Below are positions 8,466 through 40,644 of a DNA stretch of 48,382 nucleotides, piece by piece (positions within the stretch are counted from its first letter, which is position 1; each line of letters opens with the position of its first letter). Source of the stretch: a virus; the IMG/VR virus record IMGVR_UViG_3300013131_000067, positions 1 to 48,382 of that record; one strand, 5' to 3'. The notes beneath the pieces are model-generated. The model had not been told where the DNA came from. It worked only from the letters and a program-made list of their open reading frames with translations, and did not search any database. Position numbers and translations under genes: made by a program.

Positions 8466-9227
8466 ATGTCAATCACAACTTTATCTGATTATGGAAGTAT
8501 ATTTCAATCAAAGCTTATGAAGTTTTTAATAGAAGATAAGATGTTTTTCTTCAAGCTTCATCCCGTTCTTAGACCGGAATACTTTTCAGATAAAAAGTAT
8601 CGAGATTTACTAAAAGTTATTATAAAGCATTTTGAAACATATTCTGATTTACCTACATACGATGTTTTATCAATATACGCAAATAAAATTGTTGATATTG
8701 ATAGAAAAGATGCGATGATTCGTCTTATTAACGAAGTAAAAATAGAGAGTGGAAATCCGGAGTTTTTTCTAGATGAAGCATTAAAGTTTTGTAAAAGAAA
8801 TGAAATAAAGGAAACTCTAATTGATTCTGTTGATTTTCTTCAAAATGAAGATTACGAAAAAATAGAAGATAGATTAATGTCTTTAATGAAAAAGATCAAT
8901 ATAGATATCAGCGGTCATAATTATTGGGAAAACTTTGATGCTAGAAGCGCCATGACAAGATTTAACATTATTCCCACCGGTTGGGATCCTATTGATGCAA
9001 TAACAAACGGCGGATTGGGAGCTGGAGAGTTGGGAGTTATTGCCGGTGGCCCAGGATTCGGAAAATGTACTTCTAAAAACACCAAAATAGATATTGAAAT
9101 AGAGAAAATTATTATAGAAGATGATAATGGTATGGTGAATGAATATTATCCGTGGGATAATATTAAGCTTCCAAACGGAAATATAAAACTCGCAAAAGAT
9201 ATTGTTAATGAAGATTTTTCACTTTAG
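8466..9227 (+). CDS. Replicative DNA helicase, N-terminal half plus N-intein
   Basis: Residues 1-200 are the N-terminal part of a DnaB/T4 gp41-type helicase: helical N-domain, linker, then TGWDPIDAITNGGLGAGELG and Walker A GGPGFGK. The frame then passes directly into an intein N-half at Cys201 (CTSKNTKIDI...) and stops 53 residues later at TAG. The break falls after the Walker A lysine, so this half cannot be active alone. The partner half is at 10166-11383. Extein Trps are TGG. AGGAG lies 8 nt before the start. Confidence 0.9.
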   Translation: MSITTLSDYGSIFQSKLMKFLIEDKMFFFKLHPVLRPEYFSDKKYRDLLKVIIKHFETYSDLPTYDVLSIYANKIVDIDRKDAMIRLINEVKIESGNPEFFLDEALKFCKRNEIKETLIDSVDFLQNEDYEKIEDRLMSLMKKINIDISGHNYWENFDARSAMTRFNIIPTGWDPIDAITNGGLGAGELGVIAGGPGFGKCTSKNTKIDIEIEKIIIEDDNGMVNEYYPWDNIKLPNGNIKLAKDIVNEDFSL

Positions 9228-9285
9228 TTTTTTCAAAACCCGATCTTTCAAGTATATATTATAATAAAAGAAAGGGAATAAATAT

Positions 9286-10203
9286 ATGAAGAAAAAATCT
9301 TTGTTTGAAATTTGATGCGATAAATATGGAAATGATTTAGCAATAATAAAATGAAACGAGTATATAGAGAAACAAAAAAAATGTAATACAAAAAATACAT
9401 ATATTGAAAAATATGGTGAAGAGATTGGTGAAAAAAAATGAAATGAATTTATAGAAAAAAGTAAACAAACAGAATTAAACATGATAAAAAGATATGGCGA
9501 AGAAACAGGTAAAAAAAAATGAAACGAATATATCCAAAAACATAAGAAAAATCAAACTCTGGAGGGATTAATTTATCATCACGGAAAAGAAAAAGGTGAA
9601 TTAATTTACAACAATAGGGTAAAAAAAATAAAAGAAGCGAATCGTGGTGAATCAAATCCCATGTCGATTCAATCAATTTCAAAACGAATGAATATAACAA
9701 TGGAGGAAGCTAGAAAAAATACGCCATGTTATAATAGAAAAAAAGAAAAACATCCGCTTTATAATAAAAAACTGACGGATGAAACAAAGAAAAAGATATC
9801 TCTCGGGGTTCAGCGATCAAAGCCGTGAGGAAAAAAATGTAAAAAACAACAAAGTAAATGTTACGAAATGGTAAAAAAATTTTTTCCAAACACTATTTGG
9901 GAATGTAGTATAAAAACAGAGACAAAATATAGAAATGTGGATATGTTCATACCAGATTATAATCTAATAATCGAATATTATGGCGATTATTGACATATGA
10001 ACCCTTCACGATTCAATGAAAACGATTATAATAATCATTTACATTTAACCGCAAAAGAAAAATGAGCATATGATGAAAAAAGATTAAATGAATTGCGTCA
10101 AGAAGGTTATGATGTATTTATAATATGAGAATCCGATCTAAAGGAAATTAGCGAGGAGAAACTTTATGAAAGTATTAAAGGTTTTAAGACACGAAAAGAT
10201 TAA
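9286..10203 (+). CDS. Vsr-like homing endonuclease within the split helicase
   Basis: A 305-aa protein between the two helicase halves. The first ~110 residues contain four tandem ~25-aa units of the pattern YGxExGxxKWNEYIxK, a feature of free-standing homing endonucleases. A linker with NPLYNKKLTDETKKKIS (NUMOD3-like) follows. The C-terminal third has DMFIPDYNLIIEYYGDYWH, AKEKWAYDEKRLNEL and DVFIIWESDL, matching the Vsr-like endonuclease fold of the EDxHD type. Eight of nine Trps are TGA. The final 38 nt overlap the start of the C-terminal helicase half. It probably cuts an unoccupied helicase gene to spread the cassette. Confidence 0.85.
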
Positions 10204-11383
10204 TATAAAACAACTTTTTGATAAATTAAATATACGCTTTATAGATGATGAAAAAAATGATGTTATTGTTCAAAACGAATATAATATAAAAGTTTTAACG
10301 ACAATGGGTTATAAACAAATAGAGGCGATGAGACTAGTAAAACCAGAGATCCCAGTCACCTTATATTTAAAAAATAAAAAAACATTAAAAGCATCAAAAG
10401 AACATTTCGTAAAAACGTTAAATAGGAGTTGAGTAAAAATAAAAGATTTGATAAATAATGATCAAATAGAAACAAAAGATGGATTTAGTGCATTTGAAAA
10501 AATAAAAGAACATAAGAAACAAGAGGAGTTATACGATTTTCAGGTAAAAGAAATACATTCATATTTTACAAACGATATTAACAGCCATAATTCTCATTCC
10601 TTAGTCAGTATAGGATGTAATGCAGCTAGAATTGGAAAGAATGTTCTTTACATTTCACTGGAATTATATAGTAATGTTGTTGAAACCAGGTTTGATTCAA
10701 ATTTTACAAACATTGAAAATGATAAAATTAGATTTCACAAAGAGATTGTGAAAAAGAGATTAGAATCATTAAAAAATGAAGGAAAATTTGGTGATATTTT
10801 CGTAAAGTATTTTCCAACAGGTTCAGTAACTGTTCAGCAACTAAAAGCATATGTAAATCAATTAAAAGCAATGGGTTTTAATCCAGATCTTATACTTTTA
10901 GATTATGCCGATATTGTAAAGCCGGGAAGGTTTTATAAGGATGCTCATCGTCTTGAACAAAAAGGTATATATGAAGATCTTCGCGGATGGGCTGGTGAAA
11001 TTGAGAAACCAATTTGAACGGCATCTCAGGCTGGAAAACAAGTTATTGAAAAAGATTGGATTGGCATTGAAGATTTATCTGATTCGTTTGGCAAAGCAAT
11101 GGTTGCGGATCTTATCTTTGGTTTAACAAGAAAGATGGATCAAAGAATAGATAATTCTGGAAAGTTATTTGTTGCAAAAAGTCGAGTCGGAAAAGATGGT
11201 TTCATATTCCCTATCACGATGGATACTGCTTTATCTCTTATTGAGGTTCATGAAACGGATCATGATCAAACAAAAGAAATTCTGAGCGGTACAAGAAAAA
11301 ACGAATCCGGTAGAGTTTCAATGTCAAGTCATAAGAAATCCAAAATGATTGATGATTTAAGAAGCGAATTCGGTATATCATAA
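10166..11383 (+). CDS. C-intein plus replicative DNA helicase C-terminal half
   Basis: Residues 1-142 are the intein C-part. It contains block B (LKASKEHFVKT then WVKIKDLINNDQIET), block F (LYDFQVKEIHSYFTND) and block G ending SHN. The extein resumes at Ser143 with SHSLVSIGCNAARIGKNVLY, so splicing rebuilds GPGFGK-S and a 463-aa helicase (T4 gp41 is 475). Downstream are LDLILLDYAD (Walker B), PIWTASQAG (sensor region, W as TGA) and MDQRIDNSGKLFVAKSRVGKDG. GAGGAG lies 9 nt before the ATG. The C-intein is much longer than usual because the split lies before block B. Confidence 0.9.
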
Positions 11384-12498: not shown

Positions 12499-13128
12499 AT
12501 GAAGAATAATCATGAAACTTATCTAAAGATTGCAAGGTTATTTGCAGATAATTCGACATGTTGTTCTAAGAAAACTGGTTGTGTTATTGTTAGAGAAGGA
12601 AGAATTATTAGCACAGGTTATAATGGCGTTCCATCCGGTCAAATGCATTGTGATAAATATTGGTTAACGGGTGAATTTATTGATCAAACGATTCAAGATT
12701 TACAATTAGAGGTTAATGCGAGAGTGCGCTTCGGCATATCTCCGGAATTAATTATAAAAGAAAGTAATGGTCTTTTCGAACATAATGATGACATTATTGG
12801 TATAAAATGTAATAGAAAAAAGCTAATTGAGCACTTAAATCAAAAAGGTTTTAAAAAAATTTTTGATAGAGAGGAACATCATAAGTGGTCTTTAGAAAAC
12901 GAATTACACGCTGAACAAAATGCCTTAATGGCCTGTTGTAAAAACGGTATCGCTACAAATGGCGCTGATATGTATATGACAATCAGTCCATGTAAAACAT
13001 GCGCACTACTTATAGTTCAAGCCGGTATTAAAAGTGTTTTTTTTGAAGTAGAATATGATCTTTCTGCTGGTTTTGAAATTTTAAAGAAAAATAATATTGG
13101 ATATCATAACATAAATTTAAATTCATAA
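12499..13128 (+). CDS. dCMP deaminase
   Basis: Zinc-dependent deoxycytidylate deaminase converting dCMP to dUMP. The zinc site is H137-A-E139 (HAEQNAL) and PC-x2-C (C165 and C168 in SPCKTCA). The N-terminal substrate region has CSKKTGCVIV and STGYNGVPSG. A ~70-residue insert between residues 55 and 130 is larger than in the ~150-190-aa minimal family. Both Trps are TGG. It starts 2 nt after the previous gene. In this genome it could feed ThyX with dUMP while competing with the dCMP-directed ThyA-like enzyme. Confidence 0.9.
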   Translation: MKNNHETYLKIARLFADNSTCCSKKTGCVIVREGRIISTGYNGVPSGQMHCDKYWLTGEFIDQTIQDLQLEVNARVRFGISPELIIKESNGLFEHNDDIIGIKCNRKKLIEHLNQKGFKKIFDREEHHKWSLENELHAEQNALMACCKNGIATNGADMYMTISPCKTCALLIVQAGIKSVFFEVEYDLSAGFEILKKNNIGYHNINLNS

Positions 13129-16773: not shown

Positions 16774-17346
16774 ATGTCAGATAACACTCTATTCAAAAAG
16801 TTTGAAAACGAACTAAATGAAATTACGAACAAAACCGGAAATAAGGATGCACTTCAAACAATATTTGAAATGCAATGTGAACTTATGAAAAGATATGGTC
16901 ATGAACCAACTTGGCTTAAAACACCATTTATTGAACAGGAAGAAATGCGGGTTATGACAGAAAATGGAGTTGTTACTTTTCCAAAAGAATATATTGCTAA
17001 TCAAAAAGAATTAAGAACTAAGTTACTTCTTGATATGGTTCACGCTATGGATGATGAAGTATCTGAATTTAGAGGTGAATTGCCTTGGAAGCATTGGAAA
17101 AAGTATAAGCCAGAAGATATGTGGTATAATAATGAAAACGTAAAATTGGCTGCGGGTTTTGAACTAATAGATATTCTTCATTTTATGATGGAATCATTTA
17201 TTCTTCTTGGTTTTGATTGGGAAGATATTAAGAAATTATATCTAGTGAAGAATATTGAAAATTTTCATCGTCAAGATGTAGGATATGATAATTCATATAA
17301 AGAAGATGATAAGTGTAATGGATGCGACAATTGTAATTGTAAATAA
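16774..17346 (+). CDS. Dimeric dUTPase / all-alpha NTP pyrophosphatase
   Basis: All-alpha NTP-PPase of 190 aa. Diagnostic segments are IFEMQCELMKRYG (helix 1), DMVHAMDDEVSEFRGELPWK (metal-binding acidic helix) and KHWK, GFELIDILHFMMES (second acidic helix) and VKNIENFHRQDVGYD. This set matches dimeric dUTPases, a group that also includes T4 gp56-type dCTPase/dUTPases. It would hydrolyse dUTP, and perhaps dCTP, to monophosphates, feeding dCMP to the ThyA-like enzyme at 24527. A Cys-rich tail (CNGCDNCNCK) is unusual and could bind metal. All Trps are TGG. Confidence 0.85.
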   Translation: MSDNTLFKKFENELNEITNKTGNKDALQTIFEMQCELMKRYGHEPTWLKTPFIEQEEMRVMTENGVVTFPKEYIANQKELRTKLLLDMVHAMDDEVSEFRGELPWKHWKKYKPEDMWYNNENVKLAAGFELIDILHFMMESFILLGFDWEDIKKLYLVKNIENFHRQDVGYDNSYKEDDKCNGCDNCNCK

Positions 17347-19701: not shown

Positions 19702-20889
19702 ATGAATAACAATCAAAAAATTACTTGAGCTGGTATAATTCCGTTGATAGGTGGAATGTGTCTTGGAGCTCAGCAAGCAATAAAAAATAAACCAGAATAT
19801 ATTTTATCATGAAAAGTTTTTGACAAAAATGATGAAATACTTATGAATTATTATAACCAAAAAGAATATGATGTAAAAAGATATACGCTCGATGATGGTA
19901 TTTCGGAAAATATATCAAAAGTAGATATAATGGTTGCAACTCCACCATGTGCTGGATTATCTATGTTAAATTTAGGAAAAAGTAAAGATAAAAAGCGTGG
20001 TGGATGCGCAATTCAAAATGAATGAATATATCGCTCAATGGATATTTGTTTTTCGCCACAAGTTGATTGCAAGGTTCTTATTATAGAGAATGCACCAAAT
20101 CTTTATACGGATGCCGGTATTGAAGTATTAGAAAACATTAAAAATAAAGCAAAAGAACATAATAGGAGTGTTACATTTGTTAAAACATCAACACTAAAAC
20201 ACGGAATTCCTCAAGATAGAATAAGATCATTTACTTTTTTATGGAAGAATTCAAATTGTCCGATTTTAGAATTTGAAGATAAACCTTATGAAAATATATC
20301 CGATTATTTAAAACAAGTAAACAAAACAATGATAAATTATTCTGACGAATTTTCATTTGATGAAAATAAAATGAATAAATTTTTATATGAATATATTGTA
20401 AATAAACTTGGAAAAGATTTTAGATCAATTATATTTAATAATAAATCTAAAACGGTATTAGATTACATCGTTAAAAATAATTTGTTGGATGATATTATAA
20501 TTAATTGTAATGATGAAAATTTAATTAAAAAATTCAAATATGTAAAACATAAATTATCATTGGGAATGGGATATTGAGACAGTACAACAAAAATTATGTA
20601 TAATTATATTAATGCTTTAATTGGTAAGAATATCAAAAGTTATATTCATCCAACGGAAGATAGACTTCTTAATATAAGAGAGTGTTTACATCTTATGGGA
20701 TTCCCTCATGATTTCTATGCAGAAAAGAAAAATGTATGAATGATACCACAAAATGTGCCAACAAAAACAGCTGAATGAGCTGTTAGAAACGCTATCAAAT
20801 TTTTGAATAATGAATTGGAAATTTCTGAATATAACTATATGAAAATAAACAATATAAAGAAAAAAATAGATTTACAAAAAATAATTTAA
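19702..20889 (+). CDS. C5-cytosine DNA methyltransferase
   Basis: Transfers methyl groups from SAM to C5 of cytosine in DNA. Motif I is the AGIIPLIGGMCLGAQQA region at the N-terminus, motif IV is PPC with catalytic Cys83 (ATPPCAGLS), motif VI is IIENAPNL (Ala instead of the usual Val), motif VIII is HGIPQDRIRSF and motif X is QNVPTKTAEWA. The length of 395 aa fits the family. Trps are mostly TGA, including conserved AEWAVRNA. No restriction partner is adjacent, so self-protection from host restriction is the simplest role. Confidence 0.88.
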
Positions 20890-23259: not shown

Positions 23260-23796
23260 ATGTTTCCTTCACAAATTATTATAGAGGGCCCTGATAGAAC
23301 GGGGAAAGATACGCAAATAAATTTACTTCAACAATATGCCTGGAATAATCATAAACTGGCATATAATCTTTCTCATTATTCACATCTAAAAAACATCAAT
23401 GACTATCAATCTTATTCAAATACTTTATACGATAATCTTATTTATCGTATGTGTATTAGTAATACTTATGATATTTATAATCGTTCTCACATAGGTGAAT
23501 ATGTATATGCACCAATGTATCGCAATTATTCCGGAGATTATATTTTTGATATAGAAATGAAATATTTCATTGATAATTATGATCACATATTTCTTATTAC
23601 TCTTATAACAGATCCTCTTGTACTTATTTCCAGAGATGATAAGCTTTCATTTTCAAATAATTTAGAACAAAAACAACTGGAAATTTCTAAATTTAAAGAA
23701 GCACACGAGATGTCTATTATAAAGAAAAAACTTCTTATAGATTGTACTGATATGTCTAAAGAAGAAGTTCAAGAATTGATTATTCAAAACATATAG
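23260..23796 (+). CDS. Deoxynucleoside monophosphate kinase (thymidylate kinase-like)
   Basis: P-loop kinase of 178 aa. The Walker A motif IIIEGPDRTGKDTQ is at residues 6-19, and EYVYAPMYRNYSGDYIF could carry the DR-type substrate region. HIFLITLITDPLVLISRDD fits the third strand and lid. Thymidylate kinases and phage dNMP kinases share this layout. Because it lies two genes before a predicted dCMP hydroxymethylase, it could phosphorylate the modified dCMP, as T4 gene 1 kinase does; this is inference. Trp is TGG. Confidence 0.72.
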   Translation: MFPSQIIIEGPDRTGKDTQINLLQQYAWNNHKLAYNLSHYSHLKNINDYQSYSNTLYDNLIYRMCISNTYDIYNRSHIGEYVYAPMYRNYSGDYIFDIEMKYFIDNYDHIFLITLITDPLVLISRDDKLSFSNNLEQKQLEISKFKEAHEMSIIKKKLLIDCTDMSKEEVQELIIQNI

Positions 23797-23804
23797 GAGG
23801 TTTT

Positions 23805-24518
23805 ATGTCACAAGTTATTCGAAATGAAGAAATTTATATTGATGAACTCAATAAGTCCGCAACAACAAGGTATGAATTAAACGAAATTCATTGGAAAGAA
23901 ATGAATCTTGCATTAAAGTTGTTTGGTGAGGCTTTTGATAGCGATAAAAAGGATATGATATTTACAAAGAACATGCTTTATTATAAGGGCGGTTATCCTT
24001 CAGAAAAAACTCCTCCGCGTTTGTGGACATTGTTTAATCATCTTTCTATTGTAATGAAATACTTTTCTTACGCAAATAAATTGGATGAAATTGAACCTTA
24101 TTTGAATGAATTTGGTTTGAATGTTTCTCTTACAAACCTTGATTTCTTTTCTAATTTAGATATTCCGATTGATAGTTTGAATAAAAAAGCCTATAATAAG
24201 GTAAAAAAGATTTATGGTGAATTGTTTAAACCAGACGACGACGATGAATTAAACAACATGTTAAAAAGAGATCTCTTTGACAAAATTTTGAACTTTATGA
24301 TGGAAAAGCAGTATATAATCTGCACCCTTAGTGATAGCGTAAAGTTTGAAGCGGCTGATAAGGTTGAAGAAGAATGTGATATTAAACCAGTAAATTTCAA
24401 AAAGGCTGTTTTTTTGAAGTATAAAGTAATCAAGAATGGAGATATTACTGAAGATCTTGCAAAGGTTGATGAGAATATGGATAATATGGAAGCGGCAATA
24501 AGCGTATTAAAGGAATAA
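23805..24518 (+). CDS. Hypothetical protein (237 aa)
   Basis: AGGAGG precedes the ATG by 5 nt, starting 8 nt after the kinase. All Trps are TGG. The protein looks mainly alpha-helical and acidic (FKPDDDDELNNML), with LWTLFNHLSIVMKYFSYANK in the middle and an acidic end (DENMDNMEAAISVL). No known motif. Close linkage to nucleotide-metabolism genes suggests a related soluble role. Confidence 0.65.
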   Translation: MSQVIRNEEIYIDELNKSATTRYELNEIHWKEMNLALKLFGEAFDSDKKDMIFTKNMLYYKGGYPSEKTPPRLWTLFNHLSIVMKYFSYANKLDEIEPYLNEFGLNVSLTNLDFFSNLDIPIDSLNKKAYNKVKKIYGELFKPDDDDELNNMLKRDLFDKILNFMMEKQYIICTLSDSVKFEAADKVEEECDIKPVNFKKAVFLKYKVIKNGDITEDLAKVDENMDNMEAAISVLKE

Positions 24519-24526
24519 AAGTAAAT

Positions 24527-25423
24527 ATGAAAATTATTTCTGGACATAGTTTTTCTTATGTTTATAAAAAACTGTTAGATAGTTTGCTTTATGAATTTGA
24601 GTATGAAAATTCTGCTCGAAATAAGCAAACAAGAGAGATTCTTGATGTTATTCTTACAATAGAGAATCCACTTTCTAACATATTCTCGTGTTCGGCTAGA
24701 GAATTCCCTTATAATTATTTGGCTGGAGAATTGATATGATACTTTATGGGTAGACGTGATGTACATTTTATTTCTCGCTATTCAAAATTTTGACAGAAAT
24801 TAGCTGATAGTGATGGAAATCTAAATTCTGCTTATGGCTATCTTTTATTTCAAAAACCAATAAGTGATAAACATACACAAACGCAATGAATGTGAGCATT
24901 GGATAGTTTGATACGCGATAAAGATACCAGACAAGCAATAATAAGATATAATAATAATGATCATCAATATGAAGGTAATAAAGATTTCGTATGTACTCTA
25001 ATTTCTCATTTCTTTATTCGAGATAATGAACTTCATATGACAACACAAATGAGGTCCTCGGACATAGTTAGAGGTTTAACATTTGATTTCCCATTTTTCT
25101 CATTATTACAACAACAAATGAGAAATCATTTACTTCCAACATATCCTGAACTTAAAATTGGATACAATCGTCTTATTTTAGGTTCTAGTCATATTTATTC
25201 CGAGCATTATAATCTCGCAAAAGAAATGTTAGATGCCGGTATATTTGATTCGAATATACCAGAGTTATCATCAAATCTTATTGATAATAACGGAAATCCT
25301 AGTGATGTTTTAAAAGAAATTGAAAAAAGAGTTGAGCAAAATCGTAAGATGACAACACAACTAATTGATCAATTACATAATTGAATATACAATAACGCAT
25401 TTCAATCAAATAAAACTAAATAA
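24527..25423 (+). CDS. ThyA-family enzyme, predicted dCMP hydroxymethylase
   Basis: 298 aa. ThyA-fold features: HFISRYSKFW and SAYGYLLF, TRQAIIRYN (phosphate arginines from the partner subunit), catalytic Cys156, RSSD at 176-179 exactly 20 residues after the Cys as in E. coli ThyA, and SSHIYS (His/Tyr pair). At the position of E. coli Asn177, which selects dUMP, this protein has Asp187 (GLTFD). That Asn-to-Asp change is the hallmark of dCMP-directed members such as T4 dCMP hydroxymethylase. ThyX is also encoded here, leaving this enzyme free for cytosine modification. Several Trps are TGA. Methylation rather than hydroxymethylation is possible. Confidence 0.75.
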
Positions 25424-25439
25424 AAGGAAAAAATAAAGT

Positions 25440-26690
25440 ATGAATATCTCCTCAAAGATATTATCCGACATTATAATCTACATGAAATATGCTAAATATA
25501 TTCCACAATTCAAAAGAAGAGAAACATGAGATGAAATAGTTACAAGAAATATGGATATGCATATTAAAAAGTTTCCGCAATTAGAAGAAAGAATTAGAAA
25601 ACATTATCAACTTGTTTATGATAAAAAAGTTTTGCCTAGTATGAGAAGTATGCAATTTGCTGGAAAACCGATAGAAATAAGTCCTGCTAGAATTTATAAT
25701 TGTTCATATCTTCCAATAGATGATTATAGAGCATTTTCAGAAATTATGCATTTATTATTATCGGGTGTCGGTTGCGGGCTTTCTGTTCAAAAACATCATG
25801 TAGAACAACTCCCGGAAATTAGAAAACCAAACCCAAATAGACATAAAAGATTTCTTATTGGTGACAGTATAGAAGGATGAGCCGATGCCATTAAAACGTT
25901 AATGAAATCTTATTTCAACGTTAATGGCACCTCCTCTATTATTTTTGATTATTCTGATATCAGACCAAAGGGTGCAAGACTTATTACATCCGGCGGAAAG
26001 GCTCCCGGTCCGCAACCATTAAAAGATTGCATTTATAATATAACAAAAGTATTAGATCAAAAAGAAGATGGAGATAAATTGTCTCCATTAGAGGTGCATG
26101 ATATAATTTGTTTTATAGCTGACGCTGTTTTAAGTGGTGGAATTAGAAGAGCCGCTTTAATTAGCTTTTTTTCGATGAGTGATAATGAAATGTTAGCTTG
26201 CAAGGCTGGAAATTGATGGGAAAAAAATCCCCAAAGAGGAAGAGCAAATAATTCCGTAGTTATTCTTAGACATCGTATTGAAGAAGAAGATTTCAATAAA
26301 CTCTGAGAAAGAATTAGATTAAGTGGTTGCGGCGAGCCGGGAATTATGTTTACTAATGATAAAGAAGTTCTTGGGAATCCTTGTTTGGCTGGAGATACGA
26401 AGGTAGCTACGGAAATTGGCGATATTTCTATAGAAGAATTAGTATCATCGTATGAACAAGAAAAAGAATTACCGAAGATCTTGTCATATAATAAACAAAC
26501 CGGAGAATTAGAATTTTGCGAAATGTCTTGGGGGGCGCTTACAAGAGAACAGGCTGATGTTGTAGAATTAGAATTTGAAGATGGAGAAAATATAACACTA
26601 ACTCCTGATCATGAAGTTTATACAAAAAATAGAGGATATGTAAAAGCATGTAATTTAACCGAAGACGATGAAATTATTTCTATCAAATAA
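25440..26690 (+). CDS. Class II ribonucleotide reductase, N-terminal half plus N-intein
   Basis: Residues 1-314 form the N-terminal part of an adenosylcobalamin-dependent reductase: LPSMRSMQFAG, IYNCSYLPIDD (active-site Cys), GVGCGLSVQKHHVEQLP, DSIEGWADAIK (W as TGA), FDYSDIRPKGARL and CGEPGIMF. It then reads GNP and enters an intein at Cys315 (CLAGDTKVATEIGD). The 102-aa N-intein includes block B with TPDHEVYTKNRGY and ends at TAA. It is close in character to the NrdJ-1 family of split inteins. The partner half is at 27585-28640. Confidence 0.9.
25887..25928 (+). other. Long imperfect hairpin inside the reductase gene
   Basis: Stems GCCATTAA/TTAATGGC (8 bp), CGTT/AACG (4 bp) and GAAAT/ATTTC (5 bp) stack with small one-sided bulges around a CTT loop, giving 17 pairs. 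It lies in ordinary coding sequence; function is unknown. Confidence 0.35.
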
Positions 26691-26700
26691 TTTGGAAAAA

Positions 26701-26749
26701 TTTAGATATTATTCGTATATAAATAATACACGGATTACTAATATCTAAA
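26701..26749 (+). other. Inverted repeat before the reductase-linked endonuclease
   Basis: Perfect 11-bp arms (TTTAGATATTA and TAATATCTAAA) flank 27 nt in the gap between the N-intein stop and the endonuclease gene. The right arm ends one base before the GGAG of the endonuclease, so folding would hide its ribosome binding site. Confidence 0.5.
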
Positions 26750-26763
26750 AGGAGAAATAATAA

Positions 26764-27621
26764 ATGATAGAAATGAAATCCACGATAGATGAAATGGCAT
26801 TAATGGATTTTTTTTACAAACAATTTCAATGACAAAAACAAAAAATAGACATAATAATATGACCAGAATACGAATATAGATTTGATTTGTTTATGAAACA
26901 AAACAAAATACGCAATCCCAATAATGGAATAAAAAAGCGTTTTTTACAACAGATGATAAAAACAGATTATTATGATAATTGATGTAAACTAAAAACTATT
27001 TGCGAAACATTATACCTTGAAGGATATGGTTTTAAATTATTAGCTAGAAAATTTGATGTTAGTTATACCGAAATTAGAACCATATTCAATAATTTAGAGA
27101 TAGAAAAACGACACGGTTTATGCGTTGTGACTAATAAACTCAAAGAAGTTAGAAGTATAAATCTAAAAGAAGCATATAATAAAAGAGAAGGATTTTTCAA
27201 AACTTTTGAAAAAAAAACTAATAAAACTTCTAGGGGAGTGCAAGGATATTATTATAATCAAGGAATGAATAAATTAGTTTGATTGAGAAGTACTTACGAA
27301 TTCATATATGCTAAATGATTAGACAAACAAAAAATAATTTGAGACGTTGAAGTAAAGACTTTTCGACTAAAATCTACTTATTATAGACCGGACTTTTTCT
27401 TGTTTGATGACATCAACAATCTTACTATAAAAAAGATTGTTGAAATAAAAGGATATTGACAAAGAGATGTAAAAAAACTCAGAGAATTACAGCGTGAAAA
27501 TCCTCTAAATTGTGAAGTTTGCATTATATTTGATGTAAAACCTTATATAGAAGAAAATTCTAATTATTCAAAGGAACTAAAAGAATGAAAGAAAAGCAGA
27601 ATATTACTATTAGAAAAATAA
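26764..27621 (+). CDS. PD-(D/E)xK homing endonuclease-like protein in the split reductase
   Basis: 285 aa, between the two reductase halves. A helix-turn-helix-like segment (GFKLLARKFDVSYTEIRTIF) lies around residues 82-105. The C-terminal third has WLRSTYEFIYAKWLD, TYYRPDFFLF and KKIVEIKGYW, which fits a PD...ExK nuclease core. All eight Trps are TGA, unlike the exteins. The last 37 nt overlap the C-terminal reductase half. It differs from the Vsr-like enzyme in the helicase cassette, so the two insertions have separate origins. Confidence 0.78.
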
Positions 27622-28640
27622 AAAAAATTAGTGTTAGAAAAAACAGAGATGTATTTGATATTACGGTTCTCAGAAATCATAACTTTTTTGCTAATAAAAC
27701 GTTGGTATCAAATTGTAACGAAGTCTCGCTTAAGCCATTTCAATTTTGTAATTTGTGTGAAATAAACGCGTCAGACATTGAAAGTCAAGAAGATTTAAAT
27801 GAAAGAGTGGAAGCTGCCGCATTTATTGGAACACTCCAAGCATCTTATACAAACTTTCATTATTTAAGAGATGTTTGGCAAAAAACAACTGAGCGGGATG
27901 CTCTTCTTGGAATAGGAATGACAGGATTAGGTAGTGGTAAATTTTATGATGTTAATTTAGAGGAAGCCGTTCAATTAGCCAAAAAGATAAATAAAGAATT
28001 AGCCAAAGAGATTGGAATAAATAAAGCATCTAGACTTACTGTAATAAAACCTTCGGGTACCGCTAGTGTTCTTCTGGGAACAAGTTCTGGAATTCACGCG
28101 TGGCACAGTGATTATTATATTAGAAGAGTAAGGGTCGGAAAAAACGAAGCGATTTATAATTATCTTTCCAAACAACATCCAGAACTTATAGAAGATGAGT
28201 ATTTCAAACCAGAAACAGATGCAGTTATTGCAGTGCCGCAAAAAGCTCCGAAGAATTCCATTCTAAGGCATGAAAGCGCCTTAGAACTATTAAATAGAAT
28301 AAAGTATATCACCAAACATTGGATTATTCCTGGACATATCAAGGGAGAAAATCACAATAATGTTTCTGCCACCGTTTCTATTCGAGATCATGAATGGGAT
28401 GTAGTTGGAAGATGAATGTGAGATAATAGGAATTATTATAATGGTCTTTCAGTCCTTCCTTACGATGGAGGAACTTATGTTCAAGCTCCGTTTGAAGATT
28501 GCTCAAAAGAAGTATATGAAGAAATGATAAGTCATTTATCGGATATAGATTTATCAAAGATTGTAGAAGAAGAAGATATGACATCCGCAAGAGAAGAAGT
28601 AGCTTGCGCTGGTGGTTTATGTACAATAGATAGGATATAA
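27585..28640 (+). CDS. C-intein plus class II ribonucleotide reductase C-terminal half
   Basis: Residues 1-43 are a C-intein with block F (RDVFDITVLRNHNFFAN) and block G LVSN, then extein Cys44. Splicing gives GNP-CNEVSLKPFQFCNL, the conserved NPC(x)E loop of class II reductases, and a 622-aa enzyme. The rest has LLGIGMTGLGSG, KPSGTASVLLGTSSGIHAWH, GENHNNVSATVSI and a C-terminal redox pair CAGGLC. The penultimate intein residue is Ser rather than the usual His. TGA-coded Trp occurs in VGRWMWDN. Expression depends on its own start inside the endonuclease gene. Confidence 0.9.
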
Positions 28641-28641
28641 T

Positions 28642-29250
28642 GTGGAAATTAAATTATTAGATCACACAAAATTAAGCAACGCCGTTATAGCGGGAAGAAC
28701 AGCTTATCAATCTTTTCATAAAGGTGGAAATTATGATGGTGCAACTGATGATATAACGGATGTAGATAAAGAATTTCTAAATTGATTATTCAATAAACAA
28801 AAACATGAATCTGTACTTGAGATGGTAACATACGTTTTCAAAATGGATGATTTCTCAAGAGCTGTTTTGCAACAATGATCAAGAAATCGTATTATGAGTC
28901 AAACCGTTATGTCAACTAGATATATTAAGCCAAAGAAATTTAAGTTATACAAAACGGATAATGAAGAACTTAATGAATATATTCAAAATTATTTTGATGG
29001 ACTAATAGAAAAATTTGGTCATTTATCAAACGATGTCATAAAATACGGATACCCAGAAGCTGTTTTAACAAAAAACGTTGTTACTTTCAATTTTAGAGAA
29101 CTGAATCATATTCTAACATTGAGATTATCAAATCATGCATTTAAAGAGTATCAAGAATTGGCAAGAATGTTGTTAAATAATATACCTGAAAAACATAAGT
29201 TTTTATTTGAAGAGAGTTTTGGGGAATTTATTGAGAAAGAAGAGTGTTAA
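28642..29250 (+). CDS. thyX: Flavin-dependent thymidylate synthase ThyX
   Basis: Makes dTMP from dUMP using FAD and methylene-tetrahydrofolate. The ThyX signature RHRx7S appears as RNRIMSQTVMS (R81 to S91) with His replaced by Asn. Other family segments are KHESVLEMV, FSRAVLQQW and LNHILTLRLSNHAFKEYQELA. 202 aa is typical. The start is GTG, since the ATG overlapping the previous stop is out of frame and closes quickly. Two Trps are TGA. Its presence beside a ThyA-like gene implies different jobs for the two. Confidence 0.85.
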
Positions 29251-31451: not shown

Positions 31452-31889
31452 TTTTCTGGAGATTATGCCTTTCTTTCCAATATGTTTCCTTGTAAAATAA
31501 TTTATAAAGATTTAGAATTTCTTTCATCTGAACATTTATATCAGTGACTAAAAGTGCCAAATACACAAGAGGGAAAATGATGAAAAGATAAAATAAGAGA
31601 AGCTGTTCATGGAAAAGTGGCAAAGAAATTAGCAACAAATCCTAAATGTCCAAAAGTAGACAAATTTTATGAATTTGATCATATAAAACTTGATCGAATG
31701 AAACTGGCAGTTTATCTTAAGTTTATTCAAAATAAAAATTTAGTAGAATTATTAAGAGAAACTGGAGACGAAGAACTAATTGAGGGAAATGTCTGAAATG
31801 ATACCTTCTGAGGAGTATGTAATGGAGTTGGACAAAATCATCTTGGTAAAATTTTAATGAAGATGAGAGAAATAATTTGAGAAGAATAA
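31441..31889 (+). CDS. NADAR family protein (DUF1768, YbiA/RibX-like), apparent frameshift
   Basis: The frame from 31452 reads FSGDYAFLSNMFPCKI, LSSEHLYQWLKV, KFIQNKNLVELLRETGDEEL, LIEGNVWNDTFWGVCNGVGQN and HLGKILM, the complete NADAR signature with conserved Trps as TGA. No start lies in that frame before FSGDY; the ATG at 31441 gives MINSF and is one base out of phase at a TTTT run. One extra T would give MINSFSGDY. The ATG at 31482 would cut the domain. NADAR proteins act on ADP-ribose-linked substrates and reverse guanine ADP-ribosylation, so an anti-defence role is plausible. Confidence 0.75.
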
Positions 31890-31895
31890 AATTTA

Positions 31896-32126
31896 ATGAA
31901 ATTATCAGAGCTATCTTTAAATGACTTAGCCACAGTTGTAAAAGTGATTGGGCAGGATGCGATTGCTCGAAGACTTGTGGATATGGGTGTAGTTCCAAAT
32001 CAACAGGTGCGGATTGTTCGAGTAGCACCATTGGGAGATCCAATACAAATAAAAATAATGAACTATAATCTAGCTATAAGAAAATCAGAAGCGAATAGGA
32101 TTATAGTAAATTATTTAGATCAATAA
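31896..32126 (+). CDS. FeoA-like SH3 domain protein
   Basis: 76 aa. LSLNDLATVVKVIG, RRLVDMGVVPNQQVRIVRVA, PLGDPIQIKI and NLAIRKSEANRIIV follow FeoA throughout, including the APLGDP motif. FeoA assists the ferrous-iron transporter FeoB in bacteria; no FeoB is in the window. The gene contains no Trp, so its code history cannot be judged. It converges on the reverse-strand tail module, overlapping it by 16 nt. The domain also occurs as a C-terminal part of metal-dependent repressors. Confidence 0.8.
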   Translation: MKLSELSLNDLATVVKVIGQDAIARRLVDMGVVPNQQVRIVRVAPLGDPIQIKIMNYNLAIRKSEANRIIVNYLDQ

Positions 32127-32920
32127 GATGGCAACTCATCCGTTGGAGTTTGTTCTTGTTCATAAGAATTTTCTAATGGGTTTGATGATGTAACGCTAGA
32201 TGTAACTTTATATTGATGCTTTTCCGCTGATTTAATTGCTTCAAGACCTATATTTGATAGATATTCAAAATAATTATAATTTTGCTCATTCGTCAATTTC
32301 GCTGCGAATGCATTTGTATCTTTTATGATATCTTTATATTCACCTTGTAAATCTCCTAATTGTTGACCAATTCATTTAATTGTATCAAAAGTAGTGTTAT
32401 CTGTCTTATTTAATGAATCTAAACTTTGTTCTGTCCCACCAGCTCTTGCTAATTTTTGTAATTTAATAACAATGTGTCTATTATCTATATCTGGATTTAA
32501 TTCCGCATCGAAAGCAATACATCCAGCAGCATAAGCGTACGCTTGTTTTGATTCTGAAACATCATCTACATTCTCGGAAGCATAAGATACAGATGATATT
32601 GCTGAATTAATCAATATTAATGATATAATAGATATTGTCATTTTTTTAAATATATTTGGCAAACTACTTCCTCTTATTGTTCTTGTTATTACTTTAACCA
32701 TATTTAAATTCACATTTTTTAAACTCATAAGTTGTTTTATTTTATCTCCAATCATTTTTATTATAGAACGAATATCAATCTCATTTAATATCGAATTTTC
32801 AGATAATGTTTTTAATTCTAAAATAAAACAAATATCATTATTATTAAATCTAAATTTTTTATATTCATTAATAGTTTGAATTTCTTGTCTTACTATTTGA
32901 TCAATTAAAAAAGTCTTCAT
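32111..32920 (-). CDS. Hypothetical protein with one membrane segment (269 aa)
   Basis: Last gene of the reverse-strand appendage module. Two TGA Trps (IKWIGQQ and YWSK near the end) extend it past the apparent stop at 32372. A hydrophobic segment around residues 95-115 (MTISIISLILINSAISSVSY) is followed by a polar region. The C-terminal part is polar and helical (LQGEYKDIIKDTNAFAAKL). It could be membrane-associated or have a cleavable internal signal. Function unknown. Confidence 0.6.
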
Positions 32921-32942
32921 TGTTTTATCCTTTTACTTAGAT

Positions 32943-33275
32943 TTAGATTTCTAATGCTACTGATTTTGTTCCTGCACTTGTGCTAATTCTTATCTGACTA
33001 CTACTACTATCATTTAAAGAAACCAATCGAAAACAACCAGTAACACTTCCATTATAAATTCTTAATGCGCTATATGGAATATCTATTATATTATAAATAG
33101 GAATTGATATATTTGATATTCCATTATAATACTTTATATATCCAATAGCAGACAAGGAAGATAATAATTCATCTTTACCAAGTCCATCATAAATAACACC
33201 ATCTATGACTTTTGGAGTCCCACCTTTTATAATTAGATCCAAAGCAGATCCATCTATTGATCTTATTATACTCAT
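32943..33275 (-). CDS. Hypothetical virion-associated protein (110 aa)
   Basis: Starts 1 nt after the preceding beta-helix gene's stop. It looks all-beta (YNGISNISIPIYNIIDIPYS, CFRLVSLNDSSSSQIRIS) and lacks Trp and Cys pairs. It may be a tail-tip or fibre accessory protein. Function unknown. Confidence 0.55.
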   Translation of the reverse strand: MSIIRSIDGSALDLIIKGGTPKVIDGVIYDGLGKDELLSSLSAIGYIKYYNGISNISIPIYNIIDIPYSALRIYNGSVTGCFRLVSLNDSSSSQIRISTSAGTKSVALEI

Positions 33276-33276
33276 A

Positions 33277-34797
33277 TTAATATACTCTTATATCGCTAAC
33301 TAATCCGGTAGTTGATGCGGTGGTGTTGTATAGAATCAATTTAACCTTTTGATCAGAGCCTGTTATTGATGCAGATACAGAACCTACTTGTCAAGTTCCA
33401 TTCCCAATAGATGATCATGAGTTATAAGATATATTATTTCCAGTTAAAACCATATCAAATTGATCCCCAACGGTATCTTTAACTCAAGCTGAAACGGTTA
33501 AATTTCCAGTTCCGCTATAAATATCAATTATCTTTTGTCCAATATTAGTAAAATAAAAACCCGGAGCATTATTATAATAATATCCAGTAGTATATTTTTC
33601 TTGAATATCATTTAATGAATAAGGGCCGATGTCGATATAGGATGTACCCAAACCAAGTCGTCTATTTTTACCAAGAATATCATAAGATCCAGCGGATGAA
33701 GCATACGTTATATTACCAACTCCAGATAAACCGTTTTGTTCGTTTATTGGTTCAAAAGCTTTCTTTATACAATCTTTTGCTCTTCATCCATCAAATCTAT
33801 ATAAACCAGCAGATAATACTGATGTTAAAGCTCTCGCACTTAGACTTGCTCTTTCTGCTGTTGCATTGAACATTGTTACAATTGAATCATAATATCCACT
33901 CATTGTTGCTGATGATGAATATACATTTCTAAAGACCGTCTGAGTGTTTGACGCAAAGAAATTATTTATAGCTGCTGCACTATAAGGAGTACTAGAAATA
34001 GCGCCAACATCATAAGAACAATATCCATTTGCTAAAGTACCGCTATTATTTATAACGCTCCGATAATAACCAAGTTGCGATGCAATACCTAAACAATTAT
34101 ATACGTGAGTGTATCTAGTGTTTGCAGCGCCACCTCCAATCAATATTGAATTGATTCCAACACTACTTTTACTAGTAACATTAGCAACTGCTGTACCAAG
34201 CATAGCATATGATCCAGCCATAATAACGCTATTTTCGCAAACACAATTTAATAAACCCTGATAACTAACACATACAAAACAATCATTAACATATACCTCT
34301 CTAGCGCCGTATAATAAATTTTGCATACAACAATTATAAGCATAGCTTAATCCGGTAGTTCTCGCTCCATAAATACCATAAGTTGAGTTTACTGATGATG
34401 CGGTAACGGATCTTACATGACTATCACCATTTCCATCAAACAATATATTTCTAAATTCATAATTGGCACCATTTGTCGAACAATCAACCATTCTTCCGGA
34501 GTTCAAATAAGATTGAATGTTTGCCGTAGTTGTAGCCGTTATTCTAATATATCCAGGTTTATCTGCCGTAAGAGCTAAACAATTCGGATCTCCAATAATT
34601 TTTGTTCTATTCGCATAAGATCCATTATTGGCAATAGTCACTGTTTCTCTATATGTTCCAGGACCAATATAAAGAATATCTCCAGCCGATGCTGATAACA
34701 ATCCAAATCCAGCAACAATAGTTTTTTTTGCTTTATCGTTAGATTCTCCGGAATTTATATCTTTTCCGTTTTGATTTGACACATAGAATATTGCCAT
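33277..34797 (-). CDS. Right-handed beta-helix appendage protein (506 aa)
   Basis: AGAGGA precedes the ATG. The N-terminus (FYVSNQNGKDINSGES, GDILYIGPGTYRETVTI, TKIIGDP) is the classic start of pectate-lyase-like beta-helix proteins. Repeated turns follow (YEFRNILFDGNG, AREVYVNDCFVCVSYQ). The C-terminal ~170 residues, joined only if TGA at the GW junction (residue 338) is Trp, form a beta-sandwich region with YSGTGNLTVSAWVKD and QKVKLILYNTT, resembling a carbohydrate-binding module. Likely a tailspike or fibre part binding host glycans; no catalytic residues assigned. Confidence 0.75.
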
Positions 34798-34803
34798 ATA
34801 ATA

Positions 34804-35160
34804 TTATCCTCTTTCTGCCAGAATTGTACCAGTTATATTCAATGTTTGTTCTGGTATTTGTTCGTTATACTGATATCTTGATATAGTAAATCCTTGACAT
34901 AATCTACCAACAATTTCATTATTTTCAATTTCTTCAATATAATAATAAGAATGCAACAATATTTTATTCAACGATTGGCTTTTTAATATTCTAGCTATCA
35001 ATATTGTATTTTCATGTTTAATATAACTAACCTCTAAATCATAAACATTTAACATCTCTTCATATTCTAATTCTTCTGGAGTTTTTATTAACTCAAAAAT
35101 TCTTTCGTCTCTCGCTGCATTCAGCATTTGTTCTAATTCTTCTATAGTATATTCTGGCAT
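34804..35160 (-). CDS. Hypothetical protein (118 aa)
   Basis: Between the tail fibre and the beta-helix gene. The N-terminal ~35 residues form an acidic helix (YTIEELEQMLNAARDERIFE), then a beta-rich part (SYIKHENTILIARIL, LNITGTILAERG). No Trp. Its location suggests a fibre chaperone or connector, but this is inference. Confidence 0.55.
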   Translation of the reverse strand: MPEYTIEELEQMLNAARDERIFELIKTPEELEYEEMLNVYDLEVSYIKHENTILIARILKSQSLNKILLHSYYYIEEIENNEIVGRLCQGFTISRYQYNEQIPEQTLNITGTILAERG

Positions 35161-35173
35161 TTATATTATTCCT

Positions 35174-38100
35174 TTATAAATCAGTACGAAATCAAATTCT
35201 TCCTATTTCCGGACTAACAGGATCAGAAGTTCTATTTTCTAATACGAATCCAGCATTGCTATTTATAAAACCTGAAATTGGTTGTGTAGCAGATAAAGAA
35301 CCGGATATTCTTGTATCACCATATAAATCTATTTCAGAAAGACCTGTTAACGATAATGTTTGTGCAGATTCTATATTTATATTTCCATTAGAAGATATTG
35401 ACATGCCCTTAATGGAAAACAAATTAAGATTTTGATTTGTTGAAATGGCTATTGAATCACCATTAACATCAATTGGCAGTATTTGATTCGTTTGGAATCC
35501 ATCATTGGCGGATAATGATTGATCTTTTATTTCTACTCCACTTCCATAATCAAACGAAACTATTTTATTGGTATTACCAGCTCTTATTTGTAAATTATCA
35601 CTATTAGCACCATGTAAATTGGATGTATAAGTATTAGTAGATGATAACGATAATGTAGCAGCTAATGTATTTATATTAAAAATATTATTATTACTTAAAT
35701 TTAAATCTCCTGTTAAAATTCCTCCTCCAATTGGAAGATATGCATGAGTATGTGCTGACAAACTATATTGAGGATGATCGTTATTTAATAATCCAGATAA
35801 TGAATTATGGGGAATTCCAGATCCATTTCCGCTTATTGACTGAGCAGACAATGATCCTGTAATTGTAAAAGATGGTCCTAAGTATCTACCAATTCCGGTA
35901 TGATTAATTGTAAATAAGTTAACTGCTCTTCCAGATGTTTGATCATATAATCTTCAAATAAAAGAAGAATCCGTAATCATTCTAGAGTGTTTGGATCCTG
36001 ATCTTAAATCAGTACTTGCTTGCCCACCATCTGTACTTTCTATATAATTTCTAACAACTCCACCACTAGCCACATGAAATATATATGTCGGATCTGTTGC
36101 GCTACCAACTCCAATAAATCCATTTGATTTTAAGAAAATGCCACTATTATTACCAGAAGATCTTATTACGCTTGATGTAATAGAATTGGCAGATAATCCA
36201 TTTGTAAACGTAGATAGTCCTGTGACAGTACCGCCACTTAACGGCAATGCATTAACATCAGTAACTCCAGATAAACCAGATCCACTACCGTAAAAACTAT
36301 TTGCAGATAGATTTCCATTAACATTAAATTCTCCATTATGAACAGTATAAGAAGATGTTATTGATAAACTTGGATTTTGATATGTAGCAGAGGTCTTTCC
36401 TGCAAATAAATTTACATAACTATCAGCAGATATGCCTAAAGTATCTGCGAATGATTTTATGTAATTTGTTTGAACTCAGTCCGAAAATATTGAATTTGTA
36501 ACAAATAAGTTATTATTTGCGGAAACAGATCCTTGAAACAACGCACCACCAAAACCATTAAAAATATAATGATAGTCATCTTGACAATAAAATTCTACAT
36601 TCGACGCTGTTTTATAATAAAAAGTGTTATTTTGAATAGATCCTGCATATATTATAGTAGCGGCGGATAAACTGTTGACATACGTATCAATGCCATAAAT
36701 ATTTTGAGAATAAAAATCATAACTTGATGAAACGGATGTTGGATTAAAAGAAAGAACTTTATGTTTATCAACCGCAACGGCAAATCCACTAGCAAGTTTA
36801 TAAAAACCATTATCATTATCCGATGCAAAATATAAAGACGGAGAAGTTTCAGATCCGTCAGCAATACCAATTAAAGATGATGTTAAGCCTTGCGTAAAAT
36901 AGGTGAATCCAGTAACGCTACCACCCGAAATCGGTAAATAATTATGACTATGAGAAAGTGGATTTATATTTGATATACCATAGCCATCTCCAGATAATGT
37001 AGTCGCAAATAAACTATTTGAGGAGATAGATGGCGAGGTAATTAAATTTTGACAATGCAGTAACGATTTGATTTCAGCGGTATTTGAAACATATAAACAT
37101 CCTGCATTTGTACTTGCAAATTTTGTAGGTATATTCTGAGATTGTGATGTCAAGAAACTAGGATGATAATTTGTGATAGTGCCAGTATTACTGGTTATAT
37201 ACATGTTGCCGTTAAAGAGCCCGCCGTGTCCATGTCCACCATAAATTGCTCAGTTTTTATCATTCAATGTTGGGAATGTTGAAAAAGAACCTAAACCCAA
37301 TAAACCAATTGAATATGAATTTTCAGTACTTCTAGCAGCAAGTCCAAGAACACCAACTGCGTTTCCTGTTGTAGCATTCGTATTATTTCCATAACCCATA
37401 TAACCTACAGCAGAACCAGAGAGAGAGTTTACTCCTTGAGAAAATATACCTTTACAATTTGAAATATCTGGTCTTAAAAAAGCAACAGTATTTGCGGTAT
37501 TATTATTTGATATGATGCCAGCGCCAACACCATTATTTTCAACATATATTCCAGAATCTACTGGAACCAAACCGCCACTTGTATATTTTGAAGCATTTAT
37601 ACCAGCAGGTGTGTTTTTTATGTATAAACCATAAAAAGATTCAAGTGAAAATATATTAGCAGTTACTGTAGAAAAATTAGTTTCAGAATATAATCCACTA
37701 TATTTACCTGTTCCAAACATTTGACTAGTAAAAGCATAGTTATTTCTTATTTCATTAGAAGCTCTATTTACAACAGAATCTGTAATTAAAGGTACATTTG
37801 TATAGGACGTTCAATTTGCTGATAAGTTTAATTGTTTTGCGGTATTATTTGTAGAATGTCATGTTGTTATATTATCAATATAAGCTTTAGTTCTTTTTAT
37901 CTGACCATCAACCTTTACAAATATAACACCATCAGTAGCGTTTTTTACAGTTACAACGCCTATTTTTACGGAGTATTGACTATCTATCGGTTCAACATTT
38001 GTGATTTGACCATCGGTTGAACTTAATCATAGAATGTCACCTTCAACATAACTATTTGTATTTAATCCACGAACTAAACCATTTGTTGTCACATAACCGT

Positions 38101-38788
38101 TATTATTATCGCTTATATCATGAGTTACAACTCCAATTGTTTGAGATGCTGCTGATAATGAAGTAGAACTTGCTAAAGCAATTGTTGGCCTATTTCCTTG
38201 AGCGCCATTTATAAAAACAACCGAACCATTTGGTATCAATACGCCTGTTTTATTTACAACTCTAATAAAGAATTCTTGTCCAATTTGTAATGTAACTCCA
38301 TCATGTTCCGTATCCATACATAAAGTTTTATCATCATCGCTTCAATATAAAGAACCTTCTTGATGAATATGAGTTAAAGATGATGTTAAATTAAATTGCA
38401 ATTCATCAATATTGGATATGTTATATTCACCCATATTAATATCACCAGACATCGTGTCGCCAGATAATGGTAAATAAGAACCAACACCAGCAATAACTCC
38501 ACTTAATCCACTTCCATCTCCAATGAATATACCTGTAGCAGACACGTTTGTTCAATCAACATCTGCGCTTGCAACAATTCCAGTTAATCCAGAACCGTCT
38601 CCAACAAATGTGCCAGTTAAAGATGATCCATTGCCAATAAACACGCCAGTTAAAGAAGTTATAGAAGATGAATATGGAATTCATGAATTATTATTTCATA
38701 TATAATAGTTATCAGCATATACAGAACCTCTTATTAGATTCTTTCCAGATGCCGATGAATCAAAATGTAGTGGGTTTTTTCTTTCCAA
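35174..38788 (-). CDS. Long modular tail fibre protein (1204 aa)
   Basis: Six fragments share one frame and join when TGA is Trp. Repeats include GDGSGLSGV / GNGSSLTGT and LPLSGGTVTG / LPISGGSVTG, alternating with beta-rich spacers, as in trimeric phage fibres. The C-terminus (FVLENRTSDPVSPEIGRI then WFRTDL) is a widespread fibre foot. The start is taken as TTG at 38788 because no ATG exists in frame before the upstream TAA at 38813; the GGAG lies 12 nt away, so the start is uncertain. It opens the leftward module and probably binds host receptors. Confidence 0.78.
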
Positions 38789-40127: not shown

Positions 40128-40160
40128 CTATTTACATTTTGATTGAATTTTGATATATTA
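40128..40160 (+). promoter_or_regulatory. Putative promoter (CTATTT-20-TATATTA family)
   Basis: CTATTT at 40128 and TATATTA at 40154, again 20 nt apart; as sigma70-type boxes TTTACA, 17 nt, TATATT with an upstream TGn. It would transcribe the glycosylase-like gene at 40210 and the small genes after it. Confidence 0.62.
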
Positions 40161-40209
40161 TTTCTGGTGGTGTTTAGAAATTTTAAAATTTATTTTATCT
40201 AAGGAGTTT

Positions 40210-40644
40210 ATGGTGCAAACATTTCTTATCTCACCAAACCCTTCCGAAACAGCTGGGATTCTAGACGATAAACGACTATTCAAACAAATTGTTGAAGGCA
40301 ATCAGATTCTTGATTGTCTTCTTATTAAAGAATCAAGATGGAAGAATCATCCAGCAGTCAAGATGTGGAAAGGATATGAATCTTTTCTTGTTGCTTATGT
40401 TGGTTTTATGATTCAAGAATGGAATATGCGAGGTTATGATTGTTCAAAATCGAAAATTACTTGGTTTAAGTTTGATCAATTGTCAAATATTTTAGAATGT
40501 AAAGTTCCCCATTGGTTTTCAGATGAATTCTTTTTAGCTCATAAATCAAATCTTATTCGCAAGAAGCCTGAACATTATCGTCCTATCTTTGGGCTTGACA
40601 TTCCAGATAATCTTCCTTATATTTGGCCTAGTGGAAAGGAATAA
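40210..40644 (+). CDS. Pyrimidine-dimer DNA glycosylase-like protein
   Basis: 144 aa. VQTFLISPNPSETAGILDDK, KQIVEGNQILDCL, WKNHPAVKMWKGYE, IQEWNMRGYD and LAHKSNLIRKKPEHYRPIF match a widespread family (PF03013) annotated as pyrimidine-dimer glycosylase. The ATG at 40210 is preferred over an in-frame ATG at 40150 because AAGGAG lies 4 nt before it and the earlier one overlaps the promoter. All Trps are TGG. A repair role is inferred from the family name only. Confidence 0.72.
   Translation: MVQTFLISPNPSETAGILDDKRLFKQIVEGNQILDCLLIKESRWKNHPAVKMWKGYESFLVAYVGFMIQEWNMRGYDCSKSKITWFKFDQLSNILECKVPHWFSDEFFLAHKSNLIRKKPEHYRPIFGLDIPDNLPYIWPSGKE

Follow-up and report, generated by a model that had tools for sequence, protein, structure and literature searches.

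A predicted dCMP 5-hydroxymethylase of the thymidylate synthase superfamily in a TGA-recoded phage

The viral genome fragment IMGVR_UViG_3300013131_000067, analysed over its whole length of 48,382 nt (positions 1 to 48,382 of the IMG/VR record, here called the window), carries a gene that is predicted to encode a dCMP 5-hydroxymethylase acting like gp42 of phage T4, with a probability that we put at about 0.9. The fold, the family and the complete residue signature of a hydroxymethylase were established here; we infer the enzyme activity, and hydroxymethylcytosine is expected in the virion DNA. The same function had been proposed by the first-pass annotation and is borne out, because all decisive sequence tests available agree with this family placement and the neighbouring genes are concordant with it. 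The family and its residue rule are already well described, and the window protein is, by sequence, an additional member.

Read with the standard genetic code, the gene is interrupted by TGA at five codons (71, 89, 121, 123 and 286), a point absent from the first-pass annotation; with TGA read as tryptophan (table 4) the frame is open throughout its 298 codons and gives one intact protein. A code with TAG read as glutamine was rejected for the window, as the five TGA stops stay in the frame. In an alignment of 40 proteins, tryptophan occupied the columns of codon 71 (38/40), codon 89 (39/40), codon 123 (23/40) and codon 286 (22/40), so that four of the five TGA columns are mostly tryptophan in the relatives; the column of codon 121 held tryptophan in only five proteins and mostly tyrosine in the others. 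The recoding is real, since the relatives mostly have tryptophan at four of the TGA columns and, elsewhere in the window, many frames are open only with TGA as tryptophan. Among the hydroxymethylase family members compared it is unusual, and status as a first case is not claimed; in the paper collection searched, no report was found that combines an alternative genetic code, a phage and hydroxymethylcytosine.

Use of the recoded codon was uneven across the window (counts as TGA/TGG). It was avoided in the genes for DNA polymerase III (0/8), the helicase at 17361 (0/7), a DenV-like protein (0/8) and RNA ligase (0/6), and was abundant in the gene at 73-4083 (31/4), the minus-strand genes at 32111-38788 (17/0) and the hydroxymethylase gene (5/0). 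In the related contig L047, the polymerase had counts of 0/6 and uvsX of 8/1. No tRNA genes were found in the 48,382-nt window.

Searches of the PDB with phmmer returned MilA (2e-18) and T4 gp42 (8e-16); the five top matches were all CMP or dCMP hydroxymethylases, and all thymidylate synthases ranked lower. The protein also matched Pfam PF00303 (1e-20) and phrog_160 (6.7e-38). Its AlphaFold2 model was confident (pLDDT 92.7, pTM 0.91), and in Foldseek comparisons MilA took ranks 1-7 (TM 0.81-0.84), followed by thymidylate synthases and T4 gp42 alike; the E-values to MilA, T4 gp42 and ThyA (1e-14 to 6e-21) identify the thymidylate synthase fold. The hydroxymethylase was unmatched in a search of the defence library. 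With the window protein as single query, no matches were obtained among viral contigs, and a two-sequence alignment of the window protein and a huge-phage homologue recovered 29 loci; the wider alignment was too divergent to serve as a search query. Close relatives sought through the upstream kinase and the adjacent 237-aa protein gave none, and the polymerase search found one 11.4-kb contig that stops short of the hydroxymethylase. In the phylogenetic tree the window protein was placed close to the huge-phage group, a position that is not strongly supported; deep branches were mostly unsupported and long branches met, and no argument on descent was therefore drawn from the tree.

At the active site, the spacing pointed out in the first-pass annotation is exact: Cys156-Arg176-Asp187 corresponds to Cys146-Arg166-Asn177 of E. 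coli ThyA, with distances of 20 and 11 residues in both. The residues that serve catalysis and specificity in T4 gp42 have their counterparts here in E68, S101, Y103, R135, D153, C156, R176, S177, D179, D187, H222 and Y224, together with T157 as in gp42. These include the catalytic trio (C148, E60 and Y96 in T4; C156, E68 and Y103 here) and the hydroxymethylation signature, i.e. an Asp or Glu at Cys-3 combined with a Ser two residues before the Tyr (D153 and S101). The roles of S94, Y96, D145, C148 and D179 of gp42 are known from mutants: Asp179 selects cytosine, and Ser94, Tyr96 and Asp145 place and activate the water to which the hydroxymethyl product is due (PMC6400193). In a metagenome study, positions 177 and 147 were the two thymidylate synthase sites with the strongest association with modification of phage DNA (PMC8670742).

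Conservation was assessed in 39 family sequences, which are the alignment minus E. coli ThyA and the SPO1-type dUMP hydroxymethylase, include the window protein and T4 gp42, and contain several near-copies. All 39 have Asp at position 177 (ThyA numbering); Asp at Cys-3 is likewise invariant (39/39), as is Thr at Cys+1 (39/39), and a Ser stands two residues ahead of the catalytic Tyr in all but one (38/39). Judged from the alignment, Asp187 is not due to chance, because every family row has Asp there in company with the Cys-3 Asp and the Cys+1 Thr and, with one exception, the Ser. Asp at position 177 alone is nevertheless insufficient to call a hydroxymethylase; it is the acidic residue at Cys-3 that separates these proteins from Xp12-type enzymes. 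The second phosphate-binding arginine (T4 Arg124) is replaced by Gln136, in a column that is variable among the 39 sequences (Gln 24, Arg 12, Lys 3) and hence not decisive.

Compared with T4 gp42 (PDB 1b49, 1b5d, 6a9b), the window protein has the active-site signature, the substrate-deciding Asp and the water-activating Asp in common, and differs in its identity of only 26%, its length (298 versus 246 aa, with a longer C-terminal region), Gln136 in place of Arg124, and the use of TGA for tryptophan. The SPO1-type dUMP hydroxymethylase likewise has Asp at Cys-3 and an Arg-Gln pair at the phosphate site, but Asn at both the base-selecting position and Cys+1. The uncharacterised homologues of the huge phage LR756500 and of IMG/VR relatives (L002, L014-L031) are 41-45% identical to the window protein, possess all signature residues and share kinase or dCMP deaminase neighbours with the window gene; unlike it, they have TGG at the Trp positions, and no cytosine-C5 methyltransferase was found for them.

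The proposed reaction would begin with attack of Cys156 on C6 of dCMP, while Asp187 would hold and protonate the cytosine ring. The methylene group of 5,10-methylene-tetrahydrofolate would be transferred to C5, and the reaction to 5-hydroxymethyl-dCMP would be completed by a water that Asp153 activates, in place of a folate hydride. This product is probably phosphorylated by the kinase encoded two genes upstream, and the polymerase would then put hydroxymethylcytosine into the phage DNA, where it may hide the DNA from restriction enzymes and possibly serve as an anchor for sugar.

The gene lies in a cluster (23260-29250) on one strand with short gaps, which comprises the kinase, a gene of unknown function, the hydroxymethylase, a class II ribonucleotide reductase (RNR) and ThyX (Table 1). 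The RNR is split in two (25440-28640), with a free-standing ORF at 26764-27621 between the N-intein and C-intein ORFs. A kinase homologue was located directly upstream of the hydroxymethylase in the related loci L002, L014, L018, L023 and L038, whereas in L030 the distance is about 5 kb, again upstream; a dCMP deaminase homologue was present in the stretch around the relative gene at 20 loci. The dUTPase/NTP pyrophosphatase of the window could remove dUTP, and perhaps dCTP.

Table 1. Coordinates of the hydroxymethylase gene, its active-site codons and related genes in the window.
Feature	Position	Strand	Evidence
dCMP deaminase	12499..13128	+	phrog_174 1.4e-47
All-alpha dUTPase/NTP pyrophosphatase	16774..17346	+	PF08761 2e-12; phrog_173 1.1e-18; PDB dUTPase 1w2y 3.7e-5
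DNA cytosine-C5 methyltransferase (second cytosine-modifying enzyme), motifs recognisable by eye	19702..20889	+	PF00145 1.2e-19
Thymidylate-kinase-type deoxynucleotide kinase, proposed hydroxymethyl-dCMP kinase	23260..23796	+	phrog_761 4.4e-8; Pfam Thymidylate_kin 1e-4 (below cut-off)
Protein of unknown function (237 aa), gene flanked by those for the kinase and the hydroxymethylase	23805..24518	+	phrog_26615 only, E 0.0019
dCMP 5-hydroxymethylase (predicted; ThyA superfamily), 298 aa, TGA as Trp	24527..25423	+	PDB phmmer, Pfam, PHROG, AlphaFold2, Foldseek
Ser101-Ala102-Tyr103 (T4 gp42 Ser94-x-Tyr96)	24827..24835	+	Alignment; role PMC6400193
Asp153 at Cys-3 (T4 gp42 Asp145, water-activating; E. 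coli ThyA Leu143)	24983..24985	+	Alignment; PMC6400193
Catalytic Cys156 (TGT)	24992..24994	+	Alignment
Asp187 (GAT), cytosine-selecting (T4 gp42 Asp179; E. coli ThyA Asn177)	25085..25087	+	Alignment; PMC6400193, PMC8670742
Class II RNR, N-terminal part, then N-intein	25440..26690	+	phrog_367 1.2e-65; intein splicing domain 5.8e-4
C-intein, then RNR C-terminal part	27585..28640	+	Pfam Intein_splicing 7.9e-6, Ribonuc_red_lgC 1.6e-7
ThyX, flavin-dependent thymidylate synthase	28642..29250	+	PF02511 (Thy1) 2.6e-31

Cytosine would also be the substrate of an Xp12-type dCMP methylase, which finishes the reaction by hydride transfer to give 5-methyl-dCMP. Xp12, a phage with 5-methylcytosine (PMC9206674), was represented in the comparison by its relatives DLP4 and PaMx28, whose ThyA proteins are candidate dCMP methylases and presumably make 5-methyl-dCMP. 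These proteins have the Asp at position 177 in common with the window protein, and a canonical enzyme with the Asn-to-Asp change yields 5-methyl-dCMP (PMC8670742). The change, which had been read in the first-pass annotation as the mark of dCMP hydroxymethylases, thus stands as an indicator of the cytosine substrate and not of the hydroxymethyl product, as DLP4 and PaMx28 have it without the Cys-3 Asp. At Cys-3 and Cys+1 the DLP4 and PaMx28 proteins have Asn and Pro, against Asp153 and Thr157 in the window protein; in T4 gp42 the Cys-3 Asp is required, and D145N abolishes hydroxymethylation with no product (PMC6400193). A dihydrofolate reductase gene is found near the DLP4 and PaMx28 ThyA genes, as expected for a folate-oxidising enzyme, and none was recognised near the window gene. 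A dCMP methylase is consequently very unlikely; with both acidic residues (Asp153 and Asp187) in the window protein, cytosine together with hydroxymethylation is the consistent reading. MilA (PDB 5jnh, 5b6d), the CMP 5-hydroxymethylase of mildiomycin biosynthesis, is the best match in both sequence and structure, which would favour a ribonucleotide substrate; it has the same base-selecting Asp (Asp186). In MilA, however, ribose is selected by Lys133 and Ala176, and deoxy enzymes have Arg and Ser (PMC5175136), as does the window protein at Arg135 and Ser177; this deoxyribose-type site points to dCMP over CMP. The window gene moreover sits in a DNA-precursor operon, whereas the MilA pathway leads to an antibiotic and not to phage DNA, and a MilA-like activity is exceedingly improbable.

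The chance that the gene encodes an ordinary or redundant thymidylate synthase, converting dUMP to dTMP, is close to nil. The Pfam family and the fold are common to both, but Asn177, Leu143, Trp83 and His147 of the synthase are Asp187, Asp153, Leu92 and Thr157 here, the canonical C-terminal tail is unrecognisable, and ThyX is encoded in the same window. That ThyX makes a second dTMP synthase unnecessary had been argued earlier; ThyX is indeed present and the argument is compatible with the hydroxymethylase reading, but it is weak, as T4 encodes a thymidylate synthase (td) alongside gp42, and the ThyX motif is altered in the window (RNR-X7-S, versus RHR-X7-S). A further explanation is a variant of the dCMP hydroxymethylase reading and compatible with it: the enzyme may be active, with hydroxymethylcytosine being partial or converted further by an unseen enzyme and the C5-methyltransferase marking the rest. 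The methyltransferase has recognisable motifs and was absent from 16 related records; phages may, on the other hand, carry a methyltransferase for other reasons, and partial replacement is considered possible, though unlikely. If all cytosine were hydroxymethylated, the C5-methyltransferase would be without substrate, which counts against the main reading. Rather more doubtful is the proposal that this TGA-recoded phage runs two cytosine-C5 routes, nucleotide hydroxymethylation before replication and DNA methylation after it, with a mixed or staged pattern as the outcome.

For the dCMP hydroxymethylase family, a connection to DNA is offered by the relatives. A full-length T4-type beta-glucosyltransferase was encoded within about 5 kb of the hydroxymethylase in L002 (the 462-kb phage LR756500), L023 and L030, in which the hydroxymethylase is 43-45% identical to the window protein, and in T4 itself a beta-glucosyltransferase adjoins the gp42 gene. 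These neighbourhoods link the family with hydroxymethylcytosine in DNA. As a point against the main reading, no glucosyltransferase, carbamoyltransferase or other hydroxymethylcytosine-modifying gene was recognised in the 48-kb window, which is a genome fragment, and a beta-glucosyltransferase family search of the window gave no match. An Asp-type hydroxymethylase-like gene was also observed near a NodU-type carbamoyltransferase in Xp15 (L003, 3369-6792) and in an Acinetobacter phage (L012, 877-4777), an arrangement reported for 5-carbamoyloxymethyl-dC (PMC8670742).

Several other genes were recorded in the window and in related sequences. A DnaB-like replicative helicase at 8466-11383 was found in two frames with intein-like ends and an endonuclease-like ORF between them (NUMOD3, 9286-10203), and has the appearance of a fractured gene bearing a split intein; the same helicase is uninterrupted in L047 (4746-6128). 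Topoisomerase genes of the huge phage LR756500 (L002, 63-4330) likewise seem, by eye, to be broken up by endonuclease-like ORFs and intein-like ends. The window also encodes a NADAR-domain protein (31482-31889, 1.4e-19), of a family linked to ADP-ribose chemistry, and a T4 DenV-type pyrimidine-dimer DNA glycosylase (40150-40644, 2.3e-19). The latter, with genes for a gp32-like SSB, UvsX, RNA ligase and a DnaJ-domain protein, makes up a partly T4-like set, and the polymerase is of the PolIII type. A ThyA-like protein with the cytosine-type Asp was found on the E. coli plasmid p1106-IncFII (L005, 5066-8348); its gene adjoins ITP/XTPase, amidohydrolase, formyltransferase and transporter genes, perhaps as a small nucleoside-biosynthesis cluster.

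With its five apparent stops, the hydroxymethylase gene would be missed by ordinary annotation. Its recovery means that a TGA-recoded phage joins the phages for which hydroxymethylcytosine is predicted, and the occurrence of a hydroxymethylase together with a C5-methyltransferase in one phage presents a small, testable puzzle.
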